DNA from: a candidate division KSB1 bacterium
GTDB lineage: Bacteria; Electryoneota; RPQS01
Direction of reading: 5' to 3'
NCBI GenBank assembly: GCA_016214895.1
Contig: JACRMR010000012.1
Span: 1 to 64,000, forward strand
Length of the DNA: 64,000 bases
Below the pieces are notes generated by a model. That model did not search any database and was not told the DNA's origin. It saw only the letters and a list, made by a program, of their open reading frames with translations. The translations under genes were made by a program, and so were the position numbers. How positions within the stretch are numbered: the stretch's first letter is position 1; every line of letters begins with the position of its first letter. Positions 49,586 through 64,000 of the stretch are shown piece by piece.

Positions 49586-52330
49586 CTACTTCATCAACAC
49601 CATTTTGGCCGACTGCACGACCGAACCGGCCTCGAGCCGCGCGAAATAGACACCGCTCGCCAGATTCGTACCGTTGAACTCAAGCCTGTGCATTCCGGCG
49701 GTCAGCGCGTCGTCCACCAGCGTCGCCACGTCGCGACCCAGCACATCAAACACGGTCAGCTTGACATGGGCGGCCGACGGCAAGGCGAATTCGATAGTCG
49801 TGGTCGGGTTGAACGGATTCGGATAGTTGCCGTGCAGCTCGACCGAGGAAGGCAGTTCGCCCGGACGATCCGCCGGGACATCCTGCACTTCCATCCACGT
49901 CAGCACGCGTTGCAGCACATCGCCGTAGCTGTCCGTCCCCGAGTTTCCGCACGCTGCTTCCAACGCGAAGGCAAAGTAGGCCAGCTTGTAGGCGCCGGAA
50001 TAAGACACCGCTGCGATGCCGCCATTCTGATAGTCCATCAACTCCTCGCCGCCATTCGTCGGCAGAATCCGCGACGGACTGCGCTGCCCGTTCGACGAGC
50101 ACGAACCCTGCAACAGCAAGCTAAGGCCGTCGGAAATCGGGTTGCCCGTCGCGCCGAGTACGCGACGATCGCCGTTTAACTGCTCACTTTGCGCGTGCAA
50201 CACGTCCGCATAGAACGGCGCATCACGCAAGTCCTCGTCGATGTACTGCCCGGCCAAAATCAGGTTGCGACCGGCATTCAGGTAGTTCGTGATGCCGGTT
50301 TGTTCGGCAGCGGTCAGGCTCGTCAGCGAGTCGTCGCCGCAACTCCAGAGTACTGTTGTGTAGTGCATGAGTTCGACATCCGTGACTGCTCCGTCGAGAT
50401 TGGCATGCCAGACATCCCAACTCACTGCCGCATCGGTCAAGCCCGCTCCGTAGTTCACATCATACAGCGCGTCCACGTCGTCATCGACCAGCAGCACACT
50501 CGCGCGGCCCAAGCGGACCGTGGTTGACATGACTTGATGATAACCGTTCGGCGCCTCAAATTCAACGGATAGTTCTGCATCATAGGCCAGATTCAACTCC
50601 AGCGCGCCAATCGTGAGCACAACAGGATTCGACTGATTGTTGATCGATTGACCGGCCGGAACATTGCCCAGCGTGATCTCACCGTTACTGACCGACACAT
50701 TGGGATCGCCGGAGGTAACGATCATCGTGATATCGACGCCGTCCGCCCAACCCGCTTCGTTCGCGCAGGTCAACACCACCTGACCGGATTCGCCGCTCTC
50801 CAGACGTCCGTCGCTGTCACCACCGCTGGCGTCGTTCACGGTCAAGTCGGTCAACGACAGGCGCGGGAAAAATTGCGCAATGGCATTCCGCGCGCTGGCG
50901 CGGCCGTGACCAAGCTTCGTCGGCGGTTGAATGCTCGGGTTCTCGTCCGAGATGTCTTCGCAGGTCTCAAACATCAGGTCACGCAGTTCGGCGTTGGTCA
51001 AGGTCGGGAAGATCGACCAAATCAACGCGGCGCAGCCGCCGGCATTCGGACTGGCCATCGACGTGCCGTCATAGGCCTGATAGCCGTCGATCACCGTGCT
51101 CATAATGCTCACACCCGGCGCGCACATCTCCGTCCACGTGCCGCGATTTGACCAGCTCGCTAACACATCGTTCTGGTCCGTCGCATTCACGGCGATCACG
51201 TTTTCATAGCCGGCCGGATAGTGAATGCTCTCGACGCCGTCGTTTCCCGAGGCCCCGAAGTTCATGCAGCCCTGCGCCCAGGCCGAATTCAAGGCCTGCT
51301 GCTGCGGGCTGGAGAATCCCGGACCGCCGTAGGACATATTGATGATCTTCGCACCGTTGGCCGCCGCGTAAACGATCGCCGGAGTGGTCGCGCTCTCCGG
51401 CATCAAGCCGTTGCCCTGACTATTCAGGAAGCCCGCGCGCAAGCACATCAGTCGGCCTACCCAAGACGCTCCCGCGCAGCCGACGCCGTTATTGCCATGA
51501 CAGGCCATGATGCCGGCGACGTGCGTTCCGTGCGCCTCCATCCCGAACATGTCGTTGTCCATGTTCGCGTCGCAGTCTTCGCCTGACGCGCAACCGCCGA
51601 TATTGCGAATGAAATCCCAACCCAGAAAATCGTCCTCATAGCCGTTCTCGCCGTCATCCCAGCCGTTGATGTCCTCGGTGTCTCCCGGATAGTCCGTGTA
51701 GTCATAGCAGACGTCGTCGCTGTCGAGATCTTCGTCCGGATTCACCCAGAGAATATGCCATAATTCCGGATGGGCGGGATCCAAGGCAAGGTCGGGATGA
51801 TTCCAGTCCACGCCAGTGTCGATGCCGGCCACGATGATGTCGCGCGACCCCGTGGAAATATCCCACGCCAGGTCTTCGCCCATGATGCGCTTGTCGTACT
51901 GCGAATTCCAGCGCGGATCGTTAGGCGTGCGATCCGCACGGTACAGCAAGTCCGGCATCGCGAAATTCACATACCCGACCTCGGCGAAGCGATCAATCAC
52001 ATTCAGAACCGGATACTCCGCACGGAAGATCAGCACGTAGGTCCGATATAGATCGGGCGGAACCCGCAAGCGATCCAGCGATTCGTCGGGAACGAGACGG
52101 AAGCAGCTGCTCACTTCAAATTCGCGACAGAGGGCGTCGAATTCCGGCAGCCCGAGCTGCACAATGCCACTCTGGTCGAGGGCCGGGATTCGCGGCCCGA
52201 TATCGACCGTCAAATCGACGATCATCCGGCCAGTCAGGTATTCGCACGTTGCCCATTGATCCGATACCCGAGCACCCGCCAGCGTTGCGAGTGAAAGCAT
52301 CATCAGAAGTAGAAATAACGTCCGGCGCAT
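49586..52330 (-). CDS. Secreted S8 (subtilisin-like) protease with T9SS sorting domain
   Basis: 914 residues. A signal peptide (about 1-20) and a propeptide-like region precede the S8 domain. Its triad is Asp171 (AGIDTGVDWNHPDL), His267 (EAHGTHVAGI) and Ser424 (DGTSMASPNAGG), with oxyanion Asn363 in ASGNDG. A long Asp-rich loop between Asp and His (about 195-262) may bind calcium. A beta-rich region follows (about 490-620), then a stretch resembling a Rossmann-type DUF (SVLLVDDDVDALYD onwards). A type-A T9SS sorting domain begins at NYPNPFNPTTTIEFALP and ends KMVLMK. It is expected to act at or outside the cell surface. Transcription starts from its own TTGACA promoter. Confidence 0.95.
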   Translation of the reverse strand: MRRTLFLLLMMLSLATLAGARVSDQWATCEYLTGRMIVDLTVDIGPRIPALDQSGIVQLGLPEFDALCREFEVSSCFRLVPDESLDRLRVPPDLYRTYVLIFRAEYPVLNVIDRFAEVGYVNFAMPDLLYRADRTPNDPRWNSQYDKRIMGEDLAWDISTGSRDIIVAGIDTGVDWNHPDLALDPAHPELWHILWVNPDEDLDSDDVCYDYTDYPGDTEDINGWDDGENGYEDDFLGWDFIRNIGGCASGEDCDANMDNDMFGMEAHGTHVAGIMACHGNNGVGCAGASWVGRLMCLRAGFLNSQGNGLMPESATTPAIVYAAANGAKIINMSYGGPGFSSPQQQALNSAWAQGCMNFGASGNDGVESIHYPAGYENVIAVNATDQNDVLASWSNRGTWTEMCAPGVSIMSTVIDGYQAYDGTSMASPNAGGCAALIWSIFPTLTNAELRDLMFETCEDISDENPSIQPPTKLGHGRASARNAIAQFFPRLSLTDLTVNDASGGDSDGRLESGESGQVVLTCANEAGWADGVDITMIVTSGDPNVSVSNGEITLGNVPAGQSINNQSNPVVLTIGALELNLAYDAELSVEFEAPNGYHQVMSTTVRLGRASVLLVDDDVDALYDVNYGAGLTDAAVSWDVWHANLDGAVTDVELMHYTTVLWSCGDDSLTSLTAAEQTGITNYLNAGRNLILAGQYIDEDLRDAPFYADVLHAQSEQLNGDRRVLGATGNPISDGLSLLLQGSCSSNGQRSPSRILPTNGGEELMDYQNGGIAAVSYSGAYKLAYFAFALEAACGNSGTDSYGDVLQRVLTWMEVQDVPADRPGELPSSVELHGNYPNPFNPTTTIEFALPSAAHVKLTVFDVLGRDVATLVDDALTAGMHRLEFNGTNLASGVYFARLEAGSVVQSAKMVLMK

Positions 52331-52671: not shown

Positions 52672-53907
52672 CTACTTCACTGCCATCTTGGCCGGAATCA
52701 CACGCGGCGTTACGAACACCAGAATCTCGGTCTTGTCCAACGTTTTCGCTGAGTAGCTGAACAGCTTGCCGAATAACGGGATCGCGTGAAGCAGCGGTAC
52801 CCGCCGCTCCAGCAGTCCATCCTTCGAGCGAATCACGCCACCGATGACTACGGTCTCACCGTCCTTCACCATCAGCGTCGTATTCACCTCGCTGGTCAGG
52901 ATGATGATGCCACCGGCAACGGTCGCCTCGCCCGAGAGGTCCGAGACCTCGGGATTCAACGTCATCAATACGTCTCCGCCCGGGATGATCTGAGGCGTCA
53001 CCGTCAGCTTCACCGCCACGTCGTAGAACTGCGTGATCAGATTGCCAGACAAATCCAGCACATTGATCGGGATGCGTTTCCCCGACATCACCTTCGCGGA
53101 TTCATTGTCGTTGATCAGCACCGATGGCTGCGACAAAATCTCGGCCTTGTTATTCTCCTCCAGCGCGCTGATGGCGGCCTGCAATTCGACTCCATTCTCC
53201 AGTCGACCGAATGTGAAACTGCCGGCCGGATCGCGCACACCGAGATCCACCTCGCCGCCCGCCCGCGTATTGGAGAGCGGATTGTACAGATTGCCGAGGG
53301 ACCAGTCGATCCCCAGCTCGCGCGCGCTCTTGGTGTCCACTTCGATGATCTTCGCTTCAATCAAGACCTGCCCCGTCGGCTGGTCCAGCTCGCGAATCAC
53401 GGAGTCCAAACGCAGCACCACCCGCGGAATGTCGGTCACAATGAGCGAATTCGCCCGCACGTCGGCCTGAGCCTTGCCGCGCTCGGTCAACAGCTTGCTC
53501 AGCGTGATCGCCAGTTTTTCCGCGCGGGCGTACTTTACCGGAAATACGTCCGTCTGCAACGGTTCGAGCTTGGCCGAGGCGTTGAAATCCTTGTGCGTGG
53601 ACACGCGAATGATCCCGTTATCCTCGACCGCCACGAAATCGTTCATCCGCAGGATGTTGTTCAGCGCGTCACGCCACGGCACGTCATGCAAGAGCACCGT
53701 GACCGGACCCTTCACCTCCGAACCCGCGACGATGTTCATCCCCGAAAACTCAGAAATGCTGCGCAGCACTGTGCGGATGTCCGATTCCTCGACGTTCATC
53801 GAGATCCGACCGCTGCTCTCGCGAACGTATCCCGATTGGGCCATGGCCGGCACCATTACCGCCAGCACCGCGATCAAGCCCAATGCGTACCCAACTCTTG
53901 CTTTCAT
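52672..53907 (-). CDS. pilQ: Type IV pilus secretin PilQ (short form)
   Basis: 411 residues from ATG 53907, chosen because GAGG lies about nine bases upstream. After a signal peptide (VGYALGLIAVLAVMVPAMA) comes a single STN/N0-like domain (about 35-105, ISMNVEESDIRTVLRSISEFSGMNIV). An N1-type domain (LQTDVFPVKYARAEKLA; NSLIVTDIP) follows. The secretin core contains VLIEAKIIEVDTKSARELGIDW, ILSQPSVLINDNESAKVMSG and the terminal VPLLHAIPLFGKLFSY. It forms the outer-membrane pore for the pilus. The AMIN domains found at the start of many PilQ proteins are missing, which makes it compact. It is the last gene of the operon, after pilP. Confidence 0.92.
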   Translation of the reverse strand: MKARVGYALGLIAVLAVMVPAMAQSGYVRESSGRISMNVEESDIRTVLRSISEFSGMNIVAGSEVKGPVTVLLHDVPWRDALNNILRMNDFVAVEDNGIIRVSTHKDFNASAKLEPLQTDVFPVKYARAEKLAITLSKLLTERGKAQADVRANSLIVTDIPRVVLRLDSVIRELDQPTGQVLIEAKIIEVDTKSARELGIDWSLGNLYNPLSNTRAGGEVDLGVRDPAGSFTFGRLENGVELQAAISALEENNKAEILSQPSVLINDNESAKVMSGKRIPINVLDLSGNLITQFYDVAVKLTVTPQIIPGGDVLMTLNPEVSDLSGEATVAGGIIILTSEVNTTLMVKDGETVVIGGVIRSKDGLLERRVPLLHAIPLFGKLFSYSAKTLDKTEILVFVTPRVIPAKMAVK

Positions 53908-53966
53908 ATCTTGCACCTCTACCCCGCCCTCGGGGTTATGCGGATTCGTTAGATTCGATCGATGAA

Positions 53967-54602
53967 TCAGCTCTGTGCCTTGTCCTTCAGCTTCTCCGCC
54001 GAGGCGACTTTCAGCACGATCTGCTGGTAATCGCCGAATTCGACCAGGTCAAAGACCGCCTGCGATTGCGTCACAGCCGTCATCCGACCATTGAATACGG
54101 GATCACCCTCATGCAGCAGGAAGTTATTGCCGTCCTTGTCGCGCACCATCGCGACGTACTCGCCATCCGACCACACCACGCCGGTCAAAACCGCTTTCTC
54201 CATGCGAAGCAGATCGGTCTCGATCTCGCCCTCCTTGCGCTCGTCGATCACCAGCGCGCGAAATGGATCACGACGACCGTTGGACACGTACTCGACCGGA
54301 GTCTCGCGCCGGAATACCGTACGCTCCAAATGTACCCGCCGCGTCCCGCCCTGAAAGCTCGTGATCAGCGTGTCCGACGTGATGCCCAGACTATCGACTC
54401 CCGACAGCTCGGTCGAGAGGACGTCCGGACTGCTCTCCGCGCGCTCCGTCGGATCGTCCGCGGGGTCCGTCGCCGCCGGTTCCGGCGCGGCTGTGGTGAC
54501 CGTTTCGGGATCCGCGAACACAGGAGGCATGAACGCCGCCGCGACAAGCACGCCGATGGTCAAGCAAGCGAACAGGCTTCGTGTCGGTGAAACTCGGCTC
54601 AT
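53967..54602 (-). CDS. pilP: Type IV pilus PilP-like protein
   Basis: 211 residues. A signal or lipoprotein-like N-terminus without a clear lipobox is followed by an acidic, Pro/Thr-rich linker to about 70. The compact C-terminal beta domain typical of PilP carries YVSNGRRDPFRALV, LTGVVWSDGEYVAMVRDKDGNNFLLHEGD and FGDYQQIVLKV. PilP links the inner-membrane PilNO complex to the secretin. Its start overlaps the stop of pilO by one base, so the two are coupled. Confidence 0.85.
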   Translation of the reverse strand: MSRVSPTRSLFACLTIGVLVAAAFMPPVFADPETVTTAAPEPAATDPADDPTERAESSPDVLSTELSGVDSLGITSDTLITSFQGGTRRVHLERTVFRRETPVEYVSNGRRDPFRALVIDERKEGEIETDLLRMEKAVLTGVVWSDGEYVAMVRDKDGNNFLLHEGDPVFNGRMTAVTQSQAVFDLVEFGDYQQIVLKVASAEKLKDKAQS

Positions 54603-55249
54603 TACGCACCCCCCTTCGGCTTCTTCTGGCCGGGTCGTTGCTGCCCCTTGCTCTCTTCCTCCCTCGACTCTACCGTGACCGGCGAACCGAGGCTCTTGAA
54701 GATATAGATGGTGGCGACGAATTCCGCGTCCACCGTCTCGTGGCTGCGACCTTTCGCGGGCTTGTACGCCGTCAGCTTCAGATTCGACACATTCACTATC
54801 CGGTCCAGAGCCGCCACCGCGGACATGAACTCGCCGAGATTATGGGTCGTGGAGCGCGTCTTGATCTGAATCGGATTCTCCCAGTAGTACGCCTGCTCCA
54901 GCGGGTCCTGCGGACGAAACAGCAGGAAGTTCAAGTCATTCTCCTGACCCGCCAGCGTGATGCTCTTCAGCAGACCCTCCATTTCGCGCTGCGTCGGCAA
55001 CAGCTCCTGAGCGATCTGCCAGCTCTGCATGAGACGCGCATAGTCGTCTTCCACGGTCCGGAAGTTTGCGGCGATGCGCTTCCCCTTTGCCAGCAGCTCC
55101 GTCTCGCGGTCGATATCGGTCGCGATCTTTGCGATCCGGTCCGCCCGCGGTGTATGCACGAAATTCAGATAGGCGTAAACCACGCCGAAGGTCAACGTAC
55201 AGACGATGATCCACTTCTGAGTGGTCTGATTTCTTAGATTGATGGCCAT
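54602..55249 (-). CDS. pilO: Type IV pilus PilO-like inner-membrane protein
   Basis: 215 residues. One N-terminal membrane helix (QKWIIVCTLTFGVVYAYLNFV) is followed by a coiled coil (about 40-75) and the PilO ferredoxin-like fold (LPTQREMEGLLKSITLAGQ; LGEFMSAVAALDRIVNVSNLKL). The last 25 residues are charged and disordered-looking. PilO pairs with PilN to form the alignment complex between the inner-membrane platform and the secretin. Here PilN is fused to PilM, encoded two genes upstream. Confidence 0.88.
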   Translation of the reverse strand: MAINLRNQTTQKWIIVCTLTFGVVYAYLNFVHTPRADRIAKIATDIDRETELLAKGKRIAANFRTVEDDYARLMQSWQIAQELLPTQREMEGLLKSITLAGQENDLNFLLFRPQDPLEQAYYWENPIQIKTRSTTHNLGEFMSAVAALDRIVNVSNLKLTAYKPAKGRSHETVDAEFVATIYIFKSLGSPVTVESREEESKGQQRPGQKKPKGGA

Positions 55250-55273: not shown

Positions 55274-55693
55274 CTACTGAAACATCGTCGTATCGACCGC
55301 CGGGAGCGTAAAGTGCGTCCCCGGCGAGACCGTCACGCCGCCCGACCAGCGGAACGCCTTGTCCCGCCAGAAGTAGCCGACGCTCATGTCCGCGACGTAC
55401 TCGTAGTGATCGGGATTTTCCTGATCGCGACCGAGAAATACTGACCGTTCAAAATAACCGGCCGCGTTGGACTCGACCCAGCGGTCCGGACCCAGATACG
55501 GATTCTCCGAGTTCGGATCCGATTCCAGGATCACCTGCACGCCGGACACGCCCCGCGTATGCGAAGCATCCGTGTAAACGTATCCCGAGATCTTCGCCGA
55601 GCCGTTCCAGTCGTCCTGGCCCTCGTCGCAGCCCGGCAAGCACGCGACCAGCAGCCACAGGGCAACGCCGACGCTGAACAACTTCCGATTCAT
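55274..55693 (-). CDS. Small lipoprotein with carboxypeptidase-regulatory-like fold
   Basis: 139 residues. The signal peptide ends in a lipobox (ACLPGC, Cys22). The mature part starts SAKISGYVYTDASHTRGVSGVQVILE, the pattern of CarboxypepD_reg/transthyretin-like beta sandwiches. It is probably anchored in the outer or inner membrane and faces the periplasm. It sits between the PilM-PilN and PilO genes with short gaps (30 and 24 bases), so it may be an accessory pilus-assembly lipoprotein, perhaps in the place PilF/PilW holds elsewhere, though the fold differs. Function is unproven. Confidence 0.7.
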   Translation of the reverse strand: MNRKLFSVGVALWLLVACLPGCDEGQDDWNGSAKISGYVYTDASHTRGVSGVQVILESDPNSENPYLGPDRWVESNAAGYFERSVFLGRDQENPDHYEYVADMSVGYFWRDKAFRWSGGVTVSPGTHFTLPAVDTTMFQ

Positions 55694-55723: not shown

Positions 55724-57445
55724 TTATTTCGATGTCTCTTTCTTCAGCTCGTCTTCCGCCTTGCGCTTCGCTTTCAGCGCCGCGGCACCCTTCGCCAGCA
55801 GGTTCTCCGGCTTCGGCTGCGTCTTCGGCGACAAGCCCAATCCCGGATACCCGCACTGTAAGGTGAAATTCGTCACCGCCACATCCGCAATCATCCCCTG
55901 CTCGCTGACCAACAAGTCGACTCCGCGCACACCCTCCACTTTCAACAGGTTGCTCATGAGCTGCGAGACTTTCAGATTCGAGCTCGTCACTCCCGCCACG
56001 TTCATGCCCGGACCGCGGGGAGTCTGCACTTCCGCAAGCGACGTGATCCACGTCAGTTCCGGCAGCGCGTCGTTGACGAGCTGGAGCAGCTTGATCCGGG
56101 CGAAGCGGTTCTTGTCCAGATCCGAGATCACGTCAATGCGCGCCGATACGTCCGCGCGCTTCGCCGTCAAATCCTCAACCAGCGCGATCTTGTCCCGGTA
56201 CACGTCGGCCTCGGACTTCACTTCGGCCAACTGCCGATTCAAGTCGGTCAGCTGATTCTCCTGCGCGATGTGCGCGATCGCCATCCCGAGAATCACCGCC
56301 GAGATGCCCACGATCGGAACGATGGTGCCGGCGCCGGCATAGCTGGCCGTCCGGGCGCCCGGACGATCCTGCGGCAACAGCAGATTGAATCCAAAATGGT
56401 CGTCGGTCAACGCTCGCAAGGCCAAGCCGATCGCCGCGGTATATTGAGGCGCATTCTCCGGCGGGGCATCGCCCGCGCTCCCGGACTTCAGTTCCAGATT
56501 GCGGAACGGATTCGCCGTCTCCACCTCGCAGCCCAGCCGCGTGCGCAGGGACGCCTCCAGCAACGGCAGGTGCGCCCCGCCGCCGCACAGCACCACCCGA
56601 TCCACCGGGTGATCCGCGATCGCCCCGAAGTGCGAGGGCAACCCGCGCTCGATCTGCTCCGCGATCTTCTCGGCAACGCGCCGCGCCACGGCCAGCACGG
56701 CTTCGCGCTCTTCCTCGCTATGCTGCGACTTCCCCAACAGCGCCGTCGCCTTGTCAAACGGAATGCCCTGCTCACGCATCAGCCCTTCGACATAGGACTT
56801 GCCGCCGATATTGAAGCTGCGCGTGCTCTCGAATTGCGCGTGGTCGAAAGTAGTAACGTCCGTCGATTGGAATCCAATCTGGATCGCCGCCACCACAAGG
56901 TTTTCGTCGAGATACCCGGCCTCCGACAAGGCCGCCTGCAGCGCGAACGGCTCCGCTTCAAGGATCGTCGGCCGCGCCCCCGCCCACGCGATCGGCTCCA
57001 CCGCGTCGAACACACGATCGTTCTTCGCCGCGACCAGCAGGACGTCCATCCGACCCGATTCACTATCCTGACCCAACTTCGCGAAGTCCAAAGAGACTTC
57101 GCTCAAGTCAAACGGCAGATTGCTCTTTGCCTCGAACAGAATGGCGGATTTCAACTCCTCATCGCTCATCTCTTCCGTGGAGATCCGCTTGATCATGACG
57201 CGCCGCCCGGCGACCGAAAGCGCCACCGGCTTGCCGCGCAGCTTGTGCTCCTGCAACAGCTCGGAAATCTTGTCACACACGAGCTGCGAGTCCATCACCG
57301 TGCCCTCTACGACGGCATCGTGGGGCAGACTCCGGGAATCGACGCAGTCCACCGCGATTCCGGTCTTCCCCGTGCGCAAGACGGCAAGCTGCACGCCCGA
57401 GCTGCCGACGTCAATGCCAATTCCAACCTTTGTGCGTCGCGTCAT
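55724..57445 (-). CDS. PilM-PilN fusion protein of the type IV pilus
   Basis: 573 residues. Residues 1-350 are PilM, an actin-like ATPase: GIGIDVGSSGVQLAVL at 8-23, EAKSNLPFDLSEVSLDF, and VVLCGGGAHLPLLE at 284-297. The PilN N-terminal motif FNLLLPQ (353-359), which normally binds PilM, then runs straight into a membrane helix (about 373-393), a coiled coil and the PilN ferredoxin-like domain (LPELTWITSLAEV; VEGVRGVDLL). In most species pilM and pilN are separate. The fusion makes the PilM-PilN contact covalent. A charged C-terminal tail follows from about 535. No second start or frame break is seen. Confidence 0.85.
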   Translation of the reverse strand: MTRRTKVGIGIDVGSSGVQLAVLRTGKTGIAVDCVDSRSLPHDAVVEGTVMDSQLVCDKISELLQEHKLRGKPVALSVAGRRVMIKRISTEEMSDEELKSAILFEAKSNLPFDLSEVSLDFAKLGQDSESGRMDVLLVAAKNDRVFDAVEPIAWAGARPTILEAEPFALQAALSEAGYLDENLVVAAIQIGFQSTDVTTFDHAQFESTRSFNIGGKSYVEGLMREQGIPFDKATALLGKSQHSEEEREAVLAVARRVAEKIAEQIERGLPSHFGAIADHPVDRVVLCGGGAHLPLLEASLRTRLGCEVETANPFRNLELKSGSAGDAPPENAPQYTAAIGLALRALTDDHFGFNLLLPQDRPGARTASYAGAGTIVPIVGISAVILGMAIAHIAQENQLTDLNRQLAEVKSEADVYRDKIALVEDLTAKRADVSARIDVISDLDKNRFARIKLLQLVNDALPELTWITSLAEVQTPRGPGMNVAGVTSSNLKVSQLMSNLLKVEGVRGVDLLVSEQGMIADVAVTNFTLQCGYPGLGLSPKTQPKPENLLAKGAAALKAKRKAEDELKKETSK

Positions 57446-57457
57446 TTGCAGATTCCT

Positions 57458-58621
57458 TTACACCAGTGGGATCGTCATCGAATTCGCCGTCGGAGTCGAC
57501 GTCGCCCGCGGCTTAGCCTCTGCTTCGCCTCCGACCGGCCGACGCGGCAGGACCACCGCGAATTCGCTACCCTGACCCGGAGCACTTTTCGCCCGGATTC
57601 GCCCGCCCATTGCCTTGACAAATGTTTCTGTGATCGCCAGTCCCAGACCAATGCCGGTCGCGCTGCCGATCGCCGCCGAACCCCGATAGAAACGATCGAA
57701 AATGTGCGGCAACTCGCGCTCGGGAATGCCGACGCCGTTGTCGCGCACCCGGATTTCCAGCCAGTCTTCCGCATCGTCGAGTTCCAACTCCACGCGGCCG
57801 CTGTGCATCGTATGTTGCACGGCATTCTGCAGCAGGTTCAACACGATGCGGTACATCGCTTCCGTGGAGCCGAACAGCGGGGCCGCGTCGTCCGGGATCC
57901 GCGTAATGATCTGAATTTCCCGCCGCTCCGCTTCCGCTTCACACCGGCGAACGGCGCTGCGAGCGCATTCCACCACGTCGATCGCACCGCCGCGCAAGTC
58001 AATCTCCGCGGTGTCCAGCTTGCGCACGTCGAGCAGGTCCTCGATCAACTTTGATAGCTGATCAATCTCGTCTTCGATGACCCGCACATAGCGCCGCCGG
58101 CGATCCGCATCCAACTCGTTGGCCTGACCCAGCGTGTAGATATAACCCTTCACCAGTCCCAGCGACGTCCGCAGCGCGAATTCCACGGACTGTTCATGCG
58201 CTTCCGCCGTGTCCCACATCTTGCGTTCCAGCGTCACCTCGTGCGAGATGTCGCGGGCAATGCCGGAGATGTGCGTCACGGCATGACCCGCCAGGTGCGG
58301 GGTTTCCAGCGCTTCCGTCGTGACCCGCTCTTTGTCGATCGTCTGATAGACGCGGGTGGAACGCAACGGCGCGCCGGTCTTTAACAGCTGTCCCAGCGTG
58401 CGCTCGGCATACTGCCGCGACTCGCGATCCATCCAGTTCGTCAACAACGTGCCGAGCAGCGCCTCGCGTGGCTGCTTCAGCATGCGGCAGAATTGCCCGT
58501 TCACGTCGAGGATCACTCCGCCCGGACCCAGCAGGTACACCGCGTCGTGCGTTCGGTCGAGGATCTCGTGCCAGGCGGCGGCGTGTTTCCCGCTCTGCTT
58601 GTCATCGCTGACGTTGTTCAA
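57458..58621 (-). CDS. PAS-histidine-kinase-like protein lacking the phospho-acceptor His
   Basis: 387 residues. A PAS domain (about 14-125, YLLGPGGVILDVNGQFCRML) is followed by a dimerisation helix pair whose H-box reads EFALRT at 147-152. Phe148 stands where SHELRT has its His. The ATPase domain is intact: N box NLLQNAVQH, G1 DNGVGIPE, F box FDRFYRG and G2 GIGLGLAI. So it should bind ATP but cannot autophosphorylate in the usual way. It has no membrane helix, so it is cytoplasmic. Its ATG overlaps the stop of the response-regulator gene by four bases, and the PilM-PilN gene follows 12 bases on. It may act as a pseudokinase partner or modulate the AAA+ protein upstream. Confidence 0.8.
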   Translation of the reverse strand: MNNVSDDKQSGKHAAAWHEILDRTHDAVYLLGPGGVILDVNGQFCRMLKQPREALLGTLLTNWMDRESRQYAERTLGQLLKTGAPLRSTRVYQTIDKERVTTEALETPHLAGHAVTHISGIARDISHEVTLERKMWDTAEAHEQSVEFALRTSLGLVKGYIYTLGQANELDADRRRRYVRVIEDEIDQLSKLIEDLLDVRKLDTAEIDLRGGAIDVVECARSAVRRCEAEAERREIQIITRIPDDAAPLFGSTEAMYRIVLNLLQNAVQHTMHSGRVELELDDAEDWLEIRVRDNGVGIPERELPHIFDRFYRGSAAIGSATGIGLGLAITETFVKAMGGRIRAKSAPGQGSEFAVVLPRRPVGGEAEAKPRATSTPTANSMTIPLV

Positions 58622-59007
58622 ACCCCGGCTCCTCCGGCCGTTCGTGTCGATAGGATCCGATGAACTACCGCCAACAACTCGGTTGGCGAAAACGGTTTGG
58701 TCAGGTACTCCACCGCGCCGTGCCGCTGCCCTTCGTGGCGATCCACACTCAGCCCGCGCGCCGACAGAAACATCAGTGGAATCTCCCGCGTGCGCGGATC
58801 GGCGCGCAACTCAGTCGCGAACGTGAAGCCGTCTTCATGAGGCATGCTGACATCCGATATGATCAGGTCCGGAGCCGTCCGCGCCGCCAATTCGAGACTC
58901 GCCTCCGGATCCGTACTCAGGACCGTTTCGAAGCCCTCGCCCTGCAGCGCAAAGCCCAGCAGCTCAAGATAGCGCGGATCGTCATCGACGATCATGATTC
59001 GCGACAT
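58618..59007 (-). CDS. Stand-alone response regulator (receiver domain only)
   Basis: 129 residues, a single receiver with the acidic pocket IVDDDP (Asp8-10), phospho-acceptor Asp52 (IISDVSMP), Ser81 in the Thr/Ser position (FLSA) and Lys103 (LTKPFSP). All catalytic residues are present, so it can be phosphorylated. No output domain is attached, as in CheY or PilG/PilH of twitching-motility control. It is co-transcribed and overlaps the kinase-like gene, but that partner lacks its acceptor His. The phosphate source is therefore probably another kinase. Confidence 0.93.
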   Translation of the reverse strand: MSRIMIVDDDPRYLELLGFALQGEGFETVLSTDPEASLELAARTAPDLIISDVSMPHEDGFTFATELRADPRTREIPLMFLSARGLSVDRHEGQRHGAVEYLTKPFSPTELLAVVHRILSTRTAGGAGV

Positions 59008-59016
59008 GTTCGGTGG

Positions 59017-60351
59017 TTACCCTTCTTTGCTCTGGCTGAGACCGACGCCCGTGGACCAGTCCGCAAGCGCCATGCAACGGCGATCGTCCATCGTGACTCG
59101 ATTCAGCGGTCCAAGCAACTCGATGGCCGTGTCCAGTGTCAGTGCATCTGTATTCTGCGCCGCAAGCACGACCAGCGGTTGCAGATAGTCCAGCATCCCG
59201 CCGATATTCAACTCCGTCCGCCGGCTCAGGTACTGAAGGACCTCTGCTGGAAGCTCGATATTCCCGCACTTCCCGCGCAGAATATCCAGTCTCGCGTCCG
59301 TCGGATACGCCGTGATTTCCGCCGAGAACCCTGAGTCCAGAAGGGCTCGGAGGGCCGGAATTGTACTCACGGAGATCGCGCTGTGCTCCCGGGACATCAG
59401 ATAAGCGGACTTCCGCTTCTTCTGTAATGCCTGCAACGTCTCCGCCAGTTCGCGTTGAACCCATTCGCGTCCGTCCAGCCATTCCAGCTCATCCAGCAGC
59501 AGCAGGTCAAGTTCGCGATACAGATAGCGGAACAGATTCAGCTTGCCGTCCCGCACACTCTCGTACAGGTGATCCGCAAAGCGCCGCGCCGTCGTCAACA
59601 GCAACCGGCCCAGTGGATTCTGCGCGCTCGTTGCTTGTGCCACCGCATGCAACAGGTGAGATTTGCCGCAGCCCGGTGCGCCTCTGATCAGTCCAAAATG
59701 GGAGCCACCGTCCATGCTCGTCCGCGCCGGGTCCCGGAGCAGGCTCACGGCGTGTTCATTCGCCGGACACACGACCAGCTTGTCCCACGTCCACTCCGGA
59801 TTCAGCGGAATGCTCTTGGCCATATGCCCGACCCGATCGTCCTCGCCGAGCAGGCGCGAGCGCAGTACGGTGCTGACCTTCGGCTGCGACGTTTCATCCG
59901 CGGCCTCCGGTTGCGCGCTCTCGCCATAGTGCAGAAACACGGCGTGCTCGATCGCGTCAACTCTGCCCGCGAACGGTATCAGCTCGAAATCCGTGACCGA
60001 CTTCGCCGCCGCCAGCGCCGCCTTGTCAAGCGGATCGGCCATCACCAACGCCAAGGTGTTGCCGCTCCGACGAATCGGGATCATGGAGTACCGGTGCGCA
60101 ATCCGGGCCGGCAGATGACGCGTGGCTTCAGGATCGATCTCCACGTCCTCGAGTTTCAGAAACCGCAATTGGTAAAGGTCAGAGTAAAGTGCAATCAAGT
60201 CCGCTTCACTCAAGAGTCCCAGACGGATTACCACGCGCTCGGGTGTCTGCGATTCCTCCTGGCATACCTGCGTCACCAGCGCGAGCTGCTCGGGCTGCAA
60301 CACCTGTCGCTCCGATAACCAATCCAGAAAACTCCGCTGCGGACTTGTCAC
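59017..60351 (-). CDS. MshEN domain fused to a DnaA-like AAA+ ATPase
   Basis: 444 residues from GTG 60351, preceded by AAGGAA. Residues 7-142 are an MshEN/T2SSE-N domain (SERQVLQPEQLALVT; LGLLSEADLIALYSDLYQLRF; LPARIAHRYSMIPI; LVMADPLD). This domain normally fronts PilB/MshE assembly ATPases and often binds c-di-GMP. After a linker comes a DnaA-type AAA+ core (about 182-415): LNPEWTWDKLVVCPANEHA like the start of DnaA domain III, Walker A GAPGCGKSHLLHA (224-), Walker B LLLLDELEW (283-). The DnaA arginine-finger SRF reads SGF (340-342) and the sensor-2 Arg position reads NIGGM (382-386). No DnaA domain IV is present. The longer frame upstream is a shadow of the DUF4388 gene. Confidence 0.8.
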   Translation of the reverse strand: MTSPQRSFLDWLSERQVLQPEQLALVTQVCQEESQTPERVVIRLGLLSEADLIALYSDLYQLRFLKLEDVEIDPEATRHLPARIAHRYSMIPIRRSGNTLALVMADPLDKAALAAAKSVTDFELIPFAGRVDAIEHAVFLHYGESAQPEAADETSQPKVSTVLRSRLLGEDDRVGHMAKSIPLNPEWTWDKLVVCPANEHAVSLLRDPARTSMDGGSHFGLIRGAPGCGKSHLLHAVAQATSAQNPLGRLLLTTARRFADHLYESVRDGKLNLFRYLYRELDLLLLDELEWLDGREWVQRELAETLQALQKKRKSAYLMSREHSAISVSTIPALRALLDSGFSAEITAYPTDARLDILRGKCGNIELPAEVLQYLSRRTELNIGGMLDYLQPLVVLAAQNTDALTLDTAIELLGPLNRVTMDDRRCMALADWSTGVGLSQSKEG

Positions 60352-60364
60352 AAGCAGTTCCTTC

Positions 60365-61075
60365 TTAGCGCGACGATCCAGCGGCCGCGACCAGCGGTCC
60401 ACGCAAGACATGCTGTGCATCTTCGGCCGCCCAGAGCAAGGCTTCGGGAGCCGTAAATCGTGTGGCCTCCAACAGCAGCACCGAGTCGTTGAGACCCAGC
60501 GCGAGCAACAAATGAACATGGGTACGATACATGCGCAGGTCGGCGGCCGTGCCGTCCGCACCGGCCCCGACCCAGAATTCGGCCAGGCGCTCCCGGCTCT
60601 GCACATCCCGCGCCGTGGAATAGCGCAGACCGAGTCGGTCACCAATACTCACGCTTTCGATTCCCGGCACCCGACTCTGAATGGACTTTACCCACGCATG
60701 CAGCGCGCGGTCGGCGTCGGATTCAGGGACATCCGATGTCGCGCGTCCCGCATCCCGCCACAGCCCTTGATCCGCCAGAATTGTCGCCGTGGCCAATCGA
60801 ATGGTTCGCAGCGGCGGCAGCGTGCCCGGCTCGTAGAAGAAGGTTCCCGATTCCAAACCCGCGATTTCGTAAATCGCCGGGATCCCCTCCGTTTGTCGGG
60901 CGCCCTCTACGGTCATCGCATGCACGATGTCGCCGCGCACCCACCACAGCGCCCCGATCACCATCGATGACCGCACACGCAAGGCCCCATCGTACCCGCC
61001 GATCGCACACTCGTTGAATTCGCGGCGGATTGTCCCCGCGACGATCCGGCCCGCGGTCGTGTTCCGCTTCGCCAT
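60365..61075 (-). CDS. DUF4388 (PATAN-like) protein
   Basis: 236 residues. The N-terminal 110 residues fit DUF4388/PATAN: GALRVRSSMVIGALWWVRGDIVHAMT, then EGIPAIYEIAGLESGTFFYEPG and IRLATATILADQGLWRD. The C-terminal half is helical and unassigned. DUF4388 domains occur in response-regulator-type proteins, including regulators of surface motility in Myxococcus and cyanobacteria. Here the domain stands without a receiver, but a receiver gene lies two genes downstream. The start ATG is 27 bases past the end of pilT, and the MshEN-AAA+ gene follows after 13 bases. Confidence 0.7.
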   Translation of the reverse strand: MAKRNTTAGRIVAGTIRREFNECAIGGYDGALRVRSSMVIGALWWVRGDIVHAMTVEGARQTEGIPAIYEIAGLESGTFFYEPGTLPPLRTIRLATATILADQGLWRDAGRATSDVPESDADRALHAWVKSIQSRVPGIESVSIGDRLGLRYSTARDVQSRERLAEFWVGAGADGTAADLRMYRTHVHLLLALGLNDSVLLLEATRFTAPEALLWAAEDAQHVLRGPLVAAAGSSR

Positions 61076-61102: not shown

Positions 61103-62212
61103 TTAGACCCCGACGCCCTCACTGGCCGACAGCCGGGATCCCGACGTGTTGATCCCGCGCATGGCCATCTCCACATCGTTCGGATTGTTCGCGTTTTCGA
61201 TCGCAATATCGTGGGAAATGATGCCCTGCCGAAACAGGGTCAGAATCGACTGATCAAACGATTGCATGCCGTGAGTGCCGCGATCGTCTTCGACCAGACC
61301 GGGCAACAGGTTCATCTTCTCCGGCTCGGCAAGGCATTCCTTGACCGCTGCCGTAGCGATCAAACATTCCACCAGCGGAACCCGACCCGGTCGATCGCTG
61401 CGCGAAACCAAGCGCTGGGAGATGATCGCCTGGATCGTCCCGGCCAGAATTGACCGGATCTGCAACTGCTCGTTCAGCGGAAAGAAGGAGATGATGCGGT
61501 TGATGGCCTCTACGGCATTCACCGTGTGCAGCGACGTCAACACCAGATGCCCGGTTTCCGCAGCCTGCAGCGCTACTTTCATCGTTTCCGGATCGCGAAT
61601 CTCGCCGACCATGATGATGTCCGGATCTTCGCGCAACGCGTGCACCAGGGCTGCGTAAAAACTGTTCGTGTCGATCCCGACCTCGCGCTGCGCAATCAGC
61701 GACTTCCGATTCGTGAAAATGTACTCAATAGGATCTTCAATTGTCAGGATATTCGTACTGCGCGCGTTGTTAATGTACTCAATCAACGAGGCCAGCGTCG
61801 TGGACTTGCCGGAGCCCGTCGCGCCCGTCATCAGCACGATCCCGCGCCGGTACTGTGCGATCCGCTCCAGCACCGGGGGCAACATCAGCTCGGCAAAATT
61901 CGGAACCTGGGTCTTGATCGCGCGAATCGCCATCGCCGGCACGCCGCGCTGAAAATAGCAGTTGACACGCGTGCGGCCGTGGCCGGGTACCGACGCCGCC
62001 AGATCGAGCTCCTTGTCGCGCATGAACACCTCAAGCTGAGCCGGCGTCAGCAGCTCCTTGAGAAACGCCTCCATCTCCTCCATCGAGACGCGCTCGGGAC
62101 GCGTCGCGAATAGGTCCCCGTTGATCCGCAATACCGGAACCGCGCCGCTGCGCAGATGCAGATCCGAGGCTTTCTTTACGAATAGCAGCTCCAGTAGTCC
62201 GCGAATGTCCAT
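61103..62212 (-). CDS. pilT: Type IV pilus retraction ATPase PilT
   Basis: 369 residues. An N-terminal PAS-like domain (ASDLHLRSGAVPVLRINGDL) is followed by the RecA-like core with Walker A GATGSGKST (130-138), the Asp-box region TIEDPIEYIF and Walker B DIIMVGEIRDPET with Glu204. The His box is GHLVLTSLHT with His222 and His229. The conserved AIRxIP-type segment appears as AIRAIKTQVP, and the C-terminal retraction motif region is diverged from AIRNLIRE. It powers pilus disassembly, so the organism probably twitches. The assembly ATPase PilB and platform PilC are not in the window and may lie further right. PilU is the alternative name if a second copy exists. Confidence 0.93.
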   Translation of the reverse strand: MDIRGLLELLFVKKASDLHLRSGAVPVLRINGDLFATRPERVSMEEMEAFLKELLTPAQLEVFMRDKELDLAASVPGHGRTRVNCYFQRGVPAMAIRAIKTQVPNFAELMLPPVLERIAQYRRGIVLMTGATGSGKSTTLASLIEYINNARSTNILTIEDPIEYIFTNRKSLIAQREVGIDTNSFYAALVHALREDPDIIMVGEIRDPETMKVALQAAETGHLVLTSLHTVNAVEAINRIISFFPLNEQLQIRSILAGTIQAIISQRLVSRSDRPGRVPLVECLIATAAVKECLAEPEKMNLLPGLVEDDRGTHGMQSFDQSILTLFRQGIISHDIAIENANNPNDVEMAMRGINTSGSRLSASEGVGV

Positions 62213-62268: not shown

Positions 62269-63453
62269 TCAGACCGGATTCCGGCCCAAGCGCCGGGACA
62301 ACTCCGCGACTTTCTGGCCGGCTCCCTCGTGCGAAGCATTCTGTTGCCGCACTAATTCAAATTGCTCCAGCGCCTGGTCAAGATTGCCCACCAGTTCATG
62401 CACCACGCCCAGTTGATAGTGGAGCCCCATCTGTTCGCTCGGCGAGCCACTGTCGTGCTGCTGCTCGTTCTCGAGCAAGGTCAAGGCGCCCTGCAAATCG
62501 CCGCTCTCCTGAAGACATTCGGCCAGCGCGAGTGATGCGCGCAACCGAATCGCCGGATCGCGCCGCGCCTGTTCAAACTCGGAGATCCCGGCATCCCATA
62601 ACTTCATCTCGCGATACACGACACCGAGGTCGTAGTGGTCCTTGCCGTCGCCGGCCGGCAGCGGCTCGCTGTCGTCCGTGCCGTTTGCGGATCCCGCGAA
62701 ACCCATCCCGTCCGATCCCGCTGATCCGAATCCGCGTGACATCCCCGGAAACTCCTCCGCACCGATGCTCATCGTTTCGTCCAGCGTGTTCAGACCGCCG
62801 TAGTCCGAATACTCGCTTGCCTTCGCCCGCGTTATCGCGGGCGACTCCAGCGCGGTCTCGACCGTCGCTTCCGCCGACGGCATGGACCGCTCCGCGTATT
62901 CGCGGTTGGCCAGCCGTGATTCGACGTATTGCGTCAGCCGCTGCTGCGTCTCGACGTCCTCGATCTTCGAATCCGTGTACAGGCTGGCCAATTCTTCAAG
63001 CAGGTGCGGACTACGGATGTCCGACTCCAGGATCTTCTTGAACGAGGACCGCAGCTCTTGCTCGGACTGCTGCTTCGCCAATTTGACGTAACTGCGAATC
63101 TGCGCGAGGCAGTCTGCGTAGTATTCGAGTCCGAGATAAGCTTCCGCGAGAATCAGATAGACGTCCTCTTCCTCGGGAGCACGACGAAGCATCTTTCGCC
63201 CGATCCCCAGCACGTTCTCGTGCAGTCCCTCGAGCACGTAGCCTTCCAGCGCCCGGCGCCAAGCCTCAATCGCCTGACCCCGCGACTTGTTGCTCATGTG
63301 AAGGTCGCCCACGAGATTCCACAACGAGTAGTCACGCTCCTGGCTCGACGCCTTACTCTCATAGTACGCCAGCGCCTTGCTCCAATGCTTCTGCCGAATC
63401 GCGTCCCGGGCCACCAGCTCGGGCTGCTTCGTCGCGCCGAACAATTTCTTCAT
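62269..63453 (-). CDS. TPR-repeat protein of the pilus operon
   Basis: 394 residues from ATG 63453, chosen because AGGGA lies upstream and the next frame ends just before; the frame extends 25 codons further. Helical TPR-type repeats cover about 10-180 (ALAYYESKASSQERDYSLWNLVGDL; VYLILAEAYLGLEYYADCL) and again from about 270 to the end (HYDLGVVYREMKLWDAGISEF; HYQLGVVHELVGNLDQALEQF). A low-complexity Gly/Ser/Asp linker lies at about 215-265. This layout resembles the cytoplasmic part of FimV and similar pilus-associated scaffolds, but no membrane helix or LysM is visible. It is probably a cytoplasmic scaffold for pilus or signalling proteins. Confidence 0.7.
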   Translation of the reverse strand: MKKLFGATKQPELVARDAIRQKHWSKALAYYESKASSQERDYSLWNLVGDLHMSNKSRGQAIEAWRRALEGYVLEGLHENVLGIGRKMLRRAPEEEDVYLILAEAYLGLEYYADCLAQIRSYVKLAKQQSEQELRSSFKKILESDIRSPHLLEELASLYTDSKIEDVETQQRLTQYVESRLANREYAERSMPSAEATVETALESPAITRAKASEYSDYGGLNTLDETMSIGAEEFPGMSRGFGSAGSDGMGFAGSANGTDDSEPLPAGDGKDHYDLGVVYREMKLWDAGISEFEQARRDPAIRLRASLALAECLQESGDLQGALTLLENEQQHDSGSPSEQMGLHYQLGVVHELVGNLDQALEQFELVRQQNASHEGAGQKVAELSRRLGRNPV

Positions 63454-63464
63454 CGATAGATCCC

Positions 63465-64000
63465 TTAGCTGATCTGTTTCCAGGCTCCGCGCTGTACCGT
63501 CTGCACCCGCGGCGTGCCCGGAGGCCAATTCCCGGGTTGCAACAGGTCGGTGTCAAATCCCCATACTCGCCGCGGCGCATTGTACACCGGACTGCCGTAA
63601 CGCCAGCTCCCGATGTTGTAAACGCTGCTCCACAGATGTACGATGCTGCCACGAAACGTTACCGTCACACCGCTCCAGTTCTCGAGAAACCGGAAGCTGT
63701 TTTCCAGGCCGCCGCTGTAGGTCGTGCCCACGGTGACCACGTGACCCGCCATGACACAGGCGTTTACGGTCAGCGCGGTCGGAATCCGTGCGCTCATCGT
63801 GCCGGCTGACAAGGCGTCGTTCCAATTCGGTGAAAGTAACGTAATCGCGTCGCACATTAGCGCCGCACCCTTCTTGGCCACCGAGTTGAAGTGCCCCTGC
63901 GTGTACAGCGGACGGTCCGTAACGATGGTCAGGCCGCCCACCGGCAGCGTCGCCGCATTCTTGAGCCGCACGACGGCGCGATCACCGTTGGTGTGGCTCA
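63465..64000 (-). CDS. PilX-like pilus-operon protein, C-terminal part (cut by window edge)
   Basis: The frame is open at the right edge and ends at 63465, giving at least 178 residues. The visible part is beta-rich with Gly, Asn and Thr (RLKNAATLPVGGLTIVTDRP; SVAKKGAALMCDAITLLSP; GSWRYGSPVYNAP) and has the look of a long, hydrophilic, exported repeat domain. In T4P operons this place is often taken by PilX/PilY-like or DUF4900 proteins, which carry an N-terminal pilin-type helix. That part is outside the window, so the call rests on context and style only. The TPR gene starts 11 bases after its stop. Confidence 0.4.
   Translation of the reverse strand, partial: SHTNGDRAVVRLKNAATLPVGGLTIVTDRPLYTQGHFNSVAKKGAALMCDAITLLSPNWNDALSAGTMSARIPTALTVNACVMAGHVVTVGTTYSGGLENSFRFLENWSGVTVTFRGSIVHLWSSVYNIGSWRYGSPVYNAPRRVWGFDTDLLQPGNWPPGTPRVQTVQRGAWKQIS

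Follow-up and report, generated by a model that had tools for sequence, protein, structure and literature searches.

A pilus operon of a candidate division KSB1 bacterium encodes a fusion of an MshEN domain with a DnaA-type AAA+ module

We describe a gene from a candidate division KSB1 bacterium that joins the N-terminal MshEN domain of pilus assembly ATPases to an AAA+ module of the DnaA clade, a combination that recurs in five phyla. The gene occupies positions 59017..60351 on the minus strand of the window, i.e. the whole stretch of 64,000 nucleotides that was analysed, and lies between pilT and pilMN, the coordinates and the pilus-operon setting being those given in the earlier note. With middling confidence, we regard its product as an ATP-binding, non-motor adaptor at the base of the type IV pilus that would dock at PilM and help to set which motor engages.

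Domain make-up of the fusion protein

The 444 aa protein is read from a GTG start codon at 60351, with the ribosome-binding sequence GAAGGA (60364-60359) located 7 nt upstream. It begins with the MshEN_N or ND0 subdomain (residues 4-60, 60172..60342), followed by the MshEN_C or ND1 subdomain (residues 61-146, 59914..60171), a variable linker of 35 residues (147-181, 59809..59913) and a DnaA-domain-III-like AAA+ module including its lid (residues 182-416, 59104..59808), all on the minus strand. The module carries the Walker A motif GAPGCGKS (residues 224-231, 59659..59682) and the Walker B motif LLLLDE (residues 283-288, 59488..59505).

Sequence searches agree on both halves. Pfam matched MshEN at residues 60-145 (E 3.1e-14) and Bac_DnaA at residues 183-320 (E 5.6e-20), and NCBIfam matched the PilB N-terminus at residues 10-153 (1.7e-12) and DnaA at residues 158-416 (1.8e-31). 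Among PDB sequences, the protein hit DnaA domain III (8bv3, 2e-24) and the N-domains of PilF/PilB (2e-14 to 5e-13), and the MshEN domain queried alone reached PilF/PilB structures down to 4e-15. Of the MshEN structure, the Pfam model represents the C-terminal half alone, the c-di-GMP site being in the N-terminal half. In Pfam, no match to the RecA-like motor domain T2SSE (PF00437) was found in the protein, and none to the DNA-binding domain IV in its C-terminus. The earlier note had read the gene as an MshEN domain in front of a DnaA-domain-III-like AAA+ module that replaces the RecA-like motor and lacks domain IV, which these matches confirm.

The structure prediction that it had called for points the same way: pLDDT was mostly >90 over residues 181-420, and the nearest fold was DnaA domain III (8bv3, TM 0.89 by target length), followed by Hda. 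The alignment behind the model consisted of DnaA sequences, which biases the fold match toward DnaA, a bias that the sequence scores do not share; the MshEN half was modelled poorly because fusion orthologues were not in that alignment. On sequence scores alone, with the fold match agreeing, the second half is confirmed as a member of the DnaA clade, and another AAA+ clade was ruled out by Pfam, PDB sequence and fold search.

The protein thus resembles PilB, MshE and GspE in its N-terminal MshEN domain (ND0 plus ND1), the flexible linker that follows and its encoding with pil genes, but differs from them by the DnaA-type AAA+ module in place of the RecA-like motor, and by coming from a genome that also encodes an ordinary PilB and two PilT. 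By sequence and by fold, the second half matches DnaA domain III best, Walker A and lid included; unlike DnaA, however, the fusion has neither domain I nor domain IV, is joined to MshEN and, in its own order, has lost the arginine finger. While the absence of domain IV next to a DnaA-type AAA+ module is shared with the DnaA inactivator Hda, the Hda model TIGR03420 scored 56 bits against a cut-off of 195, below DnaA, and both the N-terminal domain and the context indicate the pilus, not replication.

A genuine dnaA gene is located on another contig of the same genome and encodes SRF, NVRELEG and the domain IV signature. The ordinary PilB and the second PilT belong to a pilB-pilT-pilC-pilS-pilR cluster around 20 kb from the operon in the window. 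Since the genome has genes for PilB, PilT and PilC at other sites, the fusion is no substitute for the motor; a stand-in for a missing PilB or DnaA was ruled out, both being encoded. DnaA domain III binds single-stranded DNA in DnaA, and competence pili use PilT, so that the module might handle DNA, e.g. DNA taken up via the pilus, or take part in replication control. We consider this improbable, given the absent domain IV, the complete dnaA elsewhere in the genome, and an MshEN part and neighbours that indicate the pilus base or MglA-type signalling.

The operon, its cassette and its relatives

The operon is transcribed from the minus strand in the order TPR-pilT-DUF4388-fusion-RR-HK-pilMN-orf139-pilO-pilP-pilQ, with intergenic gaps of -4 to 56 bp. 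Its first two genes encode a TPR protein (62269..63528), placed by domain search and gene order, and a PilT-family ATPase (61103..62212; TIGR01420, 426.5 bits, cut-off 319). They are followed by a cassette of four genes, i.e. a gene for a DUF4388-like protein (60365..61075; the Pfam match is weak here and above the cut-off in the orthologue L037), the fusion gene 13 bp after it and 9 bp ahead of the next gene, which encodes a single-domain response regulator with its phospho-acceptor Asp present (58618..59007), and a gene for a PAS-histidine-kinase-like protein without the phospho-acceptor His (57458..58621). We take DUF4388 to be the PATAN domain. Downstream lie the genes for a fused PilM-PilN platform protein, identified by curated models (55724..57445), and for the conserved small protein orf139 in the pilMN-pilO interval (55274..55693), with homologues in related loci. 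The presumed PilO-like protein (54602..55249, between pilMN and pilQ), PilP-like protein (53967..54602) and PilQ-like secretin (52672..53916) were assigned by position and by homologues in all loci. Scans for promoters and terminators around the operon gave no excess over chance. In every locus of the order that reaches this far, pilQ is followed by a gene for a subtilase-like protein whose C-terminal tail is sorting-like (49586-52330, minus strand, in the window).

The kinase-like neighbour reads EFALRTSL where HELRTPL is expected. All 11 members of the order have F or Y in place of its phospho-acceptor His, so that the cassette seems to hold more than one pseudoenzyme; the ATP-binding motifs have decayed as well in three of them. 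In L040-L042, both the fusion and the kinase-like protein are degenerate.

Within the order, a full-length fusion was found in 11 of the 13 genomes, and the gene order around it is constant from TPR-pilT to pilO-P-Q. One of the two genomes without it is 56% complete; the other, G011, is 96% complete and reads TPR-pilT-pilMN-orf139-pilO, with no space for the cassette. This operon is intact without the four genes, and therefore the cassette is separable from the pilus machine and regulatory, not structural; the natural absence also provides a ready comparison. In a further genome (G012), the DUF4388 gene alone is missing from the cassette.

Among the 39 genomes of the phylum that were searched, no fusion was found beyond the 11 of the order. 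A broad sample of 386 genomes contributed seven more carriers outside the phylum, and in the four other phyla the fusion was present in 3/3, 3/3, 3/3 and 23/147 genomes. Altogether, at least 43 genomes from five phyla carry it, a lower bound due to the strict thresholds. The linkage of the domain pair to pilus genes, which the earlier note had proposed to look for, is found across phyla, and a rare broken fusion of one genome is ruled out by the recurrence of the fusion. In scans of genome contigs, the single fusion protein gave no match and the fusion alignment retrieved DnaA and DnaA-like proteins only. In a tree obtained by a short search and with long branches, DnaA of the phylum grouped apart from the AAA+ modules of the fusions, a topology compatible with one or several origins of the fusions. 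A recent duplication of the lineage's own dnaA was unsupported, the DnaA proteins of the phylum forming a separate group.

In one of the other phyla (G163), the fusion immediately precedes pilMN in all nine loci examined, most of which encode a TPR protein on its opposite flank. In another (G061) it precedes pilB-pilT-pilS-pilR-pilC, and in a third (G186) several tandem fusion genes lie near pilB. In the fourth (G153), the surrounding genes encode an AAA_22 protein, a roadblock protein, an MglA-like GTPase and two DUF4388 proteins, and the stretch examined contains no pil genes. A related set without the fusion was found in Gemmatimonadota, comprising an MglA-like GTPase, a tandem DnaA-DnaA protein and a DUF4388-TPR protein with an intact MshEN_N motif, in one locus together with CheR, CheD and CheB. 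That the same parts recur in differing orders is the best argument for assigning DnaA-type AAA+ modules to a pilus or polarity control system. In the genome of the window itself, no match to MglA was found at E 1e-10.

Several further arrangements were seen in these loci. Tandem MshEN proteins, several with DnaA-type modules and one of 1993 aa with two AAA+ modules, are encoded at L170:4309-15923 and L166:3939-13341; both arrays adjoin a prepilin-peptidase-like gene, and that of L170 adjoins pilB too. In Gemmatimonadota (L068, L088, L104, L116 and L126), proteins of 637-661 aa consist of two DnaA-type AAA+ modules without domain IV, and their genes adjoin a gene for a DUF4388-TPR protein and, where readable, one for an MglA-like GTPase, with Che genes in some loci. 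At L068:9866-11533, the DUF4388 domain contains an insertion with a perfect c-di-GMP half-motif, RLGDILVKNGLITQQELDSAIQAQ, followed by RLGEILIEQKILTREELHRYIRLQ; to judge from these residues, the helical insertion may be an MshEN_N domain.

Conservation, motif state and the c-di-GMP question

Conservation along the fusion is uneven. Mean pairwise identity within the order is 0.58 in ND1, 0.30 in ND0, 0.17 in the linker, 0.39 in the AAA+ base and 0.26 in the lid, so that ND1 is the best-conserved part, with around twice the identity of ND0 or the lid. PilB from three of the fusion-carrying genomes is better conserved elsewhere than in ND1, and therefore this pattern is a trait of the fusion.

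Walker A is invariant in the order, and G227, G229 and K230 are invariant in 17 aligned fusions from five phyla. That Walker A and B are intact holds for the copy in the window, as had been proposed; Walker B is lost or altered in three of the 11 order members (L035, L037 and L040), and for this reason ATP turnover cannot be general. The earlier note had further suggested that the arginine finger and the sensor-2 arginine are lost. This is right for the copy in the window, which has SGF where DnaA has SRF, and NIGGM at sensor 2, and the finger is missing from all 11 members of the order. As a family trait, however, the loss does not stand: sensor 2 retains Arg in three order members and Lys in one, and most fusions outside the order have Walker B, arginine finger and sensor 2 as in canonical DnaA. 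Considering that most outside members keep these motifs and the order has lost the finger, the fusion of the order is a derived member of an ATPase family and probably does not hydrolyse ATP.

Two other readings of the AAA+ module have to be weighed here. The first is that, by analogy with DnaC/DnaI, it oligomerizes with ATP and thereby opens a hexamer of PilB or PilT, loads it or takes it off. These helicase loaders belong to the same AAA+ branch as DnaA and act on RecA-fold hexamers. Such a loader would be compatible with the DnaA-clade fold of the module, with its linkage to pilT and pilB and with the fact that, beyond the order, Walker B, arginine finger and sensor 2 are intact in most fusions. 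Nevertheless, all 11 order members have kept the gene without the arginine finger, and hexamers of PilB or PilT are not known to depend on a loader, which leaves this reading possible but doubtful. According to the second, the fusion is a decaying relic of an older switch, retained in the operon mainly as a structural protein. The finger is gone throughout the order, Walker B in three members and the kinase His as well, and the lid is shortened in three members; regardless, 11 of 13 genomes retain the gene, with Walker A and ND1 still conserved, and we regard a mere relic as unlikely.

A c-di-GMP-responsive AAA+ switch, as suggested in the earlier note, is not borne out by the residues concerned. 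In other proteins, MshEN_N serves as a receptor for c-di-GMP, and MshE binds the nucleotide via Arg, Leu, Gly, Leu, Leu and Gln of two MshEN_N half-motifs, with Arg9 and Gln32 being required (PMC5013675). In the fusion of the window these residues are not kept. Arg is lost from both RLGxx half-motifs in all 11 members of the order, Gly is lost across the order except in the second half-motif of one member, and about half of the members retain Gln in the first half-motif. None of the 11 matched the c-di-GMP motif of Wang et al. (two RLGxx...LxxxLxxQ halves) in its strict or its relaxed form, and PilB of the same genome has also lost most of the motif. One intact GGEEF cyclase is encoded in the genome (G000, C13:40840-41313), so c-di-GMP may be present, and exactly one GGDEF protein was found in each of the 12 genomes of the order searched. 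Nevertheless, c-di-GMP sensing by the fusion of the window is unlikely judging from its residues, and a switch of this kind is highly improbable. Some fusions of the G186 phylum have RLG and Gln in both half-motifs, i.e. most of the c-di-GMP residues, and for these proteins sensing is possible.

Possible role at the pilus base

What was directly seen in favour of an adaptor at the pilus base is the fusion itself, the invariant Walker A, the conserved ND1, the linkage to pilM or pilB/pilT and the natural absence of the cassette. Crystal structures show ND1 of EpsE/GspE bound to the PilM homologues EpsL/GspL, and contacts between PilB and PilM have been reported for several species (PMC8389850); moreover, the PilM socket is contested by the extension and retraction motors, PilB and PilT (PMC11656802). 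Since ND1 is constrained, the motor is replaced by an ATP-binding module and pilM is adjacent, a docked, nucleotide-dependent adaptor would be the simplest reading. ND1 would dock on PilM of the PilMN ring, the presumed seat of the PilB N-domain, and the DnaA-type module would bind ATP and shift its shape or self-association with the nucleotide. Once docked, the fusion could block, recruit or release the hexameric motor (PilB or PilT) at the platform, its state being set by the DUF4388, receiver and kinase-like neighbours. In other phyla, oligomers of the AAA+ module, which has its arginine finger and sensor 2 there, may go through ATP cycles, and in the order of the window the module would have turned into an ATP-binding scaffold. 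A role of the fusion on pilus motors can thus reasonably be inferred. Regardless, the conservation of ND1 could stem from another partner, the linkage to pil genes could mean co-regulation only, and the G153 phylum has the fusion in an MglA/roadblock/DUF4388 cluster where no pil genes were seen.

Regulators with a PATAN domain presumably target the type IV pilus motor, in the case of PixE PilB1 (PMC7690835). The DUF4388, TPR, MglA-like GTPase and Che or receiver neighbours found in several lineages resemble such regulators and the MglA-SgmX pathway on PilB, none of which, however, has been described with a DnaA-type AAA+ module. It is tempting to speculate that a widespread class of DnaA-clade AAA+ proteins serves type IV pili and MglA-type polarity, whose intact members would assemble with ATP at PilM and load or swap motors as helicase loaders do for DnaB, an analogy that we put forward only tentatively.

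As the earlier note had supposed, we found no description of the combination. Searches for an MshEN/T2SSE-DnaA fusion, a DnaA domain with a type IV pilus, DUF4388-pilus and MglA-DnaA returned no account of the family among 5.39 million open-access papers, and a 2024 review of PilB cofactors is silent on both AAA+ and DnaA. As far as tested, the parts are of known kinds and their combination and linkage to the pilus are new; subscription papers or annotated protein databases may already list this domain architecture. Each of the findings named beforehand as speaking against the proposal, i.e. another AAA+ clade, an earlier characterization or one broken genome, was checked and none held.

Motor exchange at the platform is an open question, and the recruitment of PilB to the PilM platform is unexplained even in Myxococcus (PMC11656802, PMC11580455). 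The fusion has the presumed docking domain of PilB and, in two phyla, a gene adjacent to pilM, which makes it a direct candidate for the control of this seat; if so, it would extend DnaA-type AAA+ modules from replication to the control of a surface machine.

DnaA-type AAA+ modules were also seen in other settings. Proteins of 1750-2132 aa from three genomes (L173, L174 and L175 from G336, G197 and G049, respectively) end in such a module, which groups with two of the fusion lineages in the tree; L175, the one scanned outside its AAA+ module, consists there mainly of TPR repeats. Likewise, L061:5088-6248, L067:2445-3686 and L105:7638-9095 encode DnaA-type AAA+ proteins without a recognized domain IV, one of them fused to DUF835, on contigs that are labelled as Thermoplasmata/DHVE2 archaea and may be contamination.
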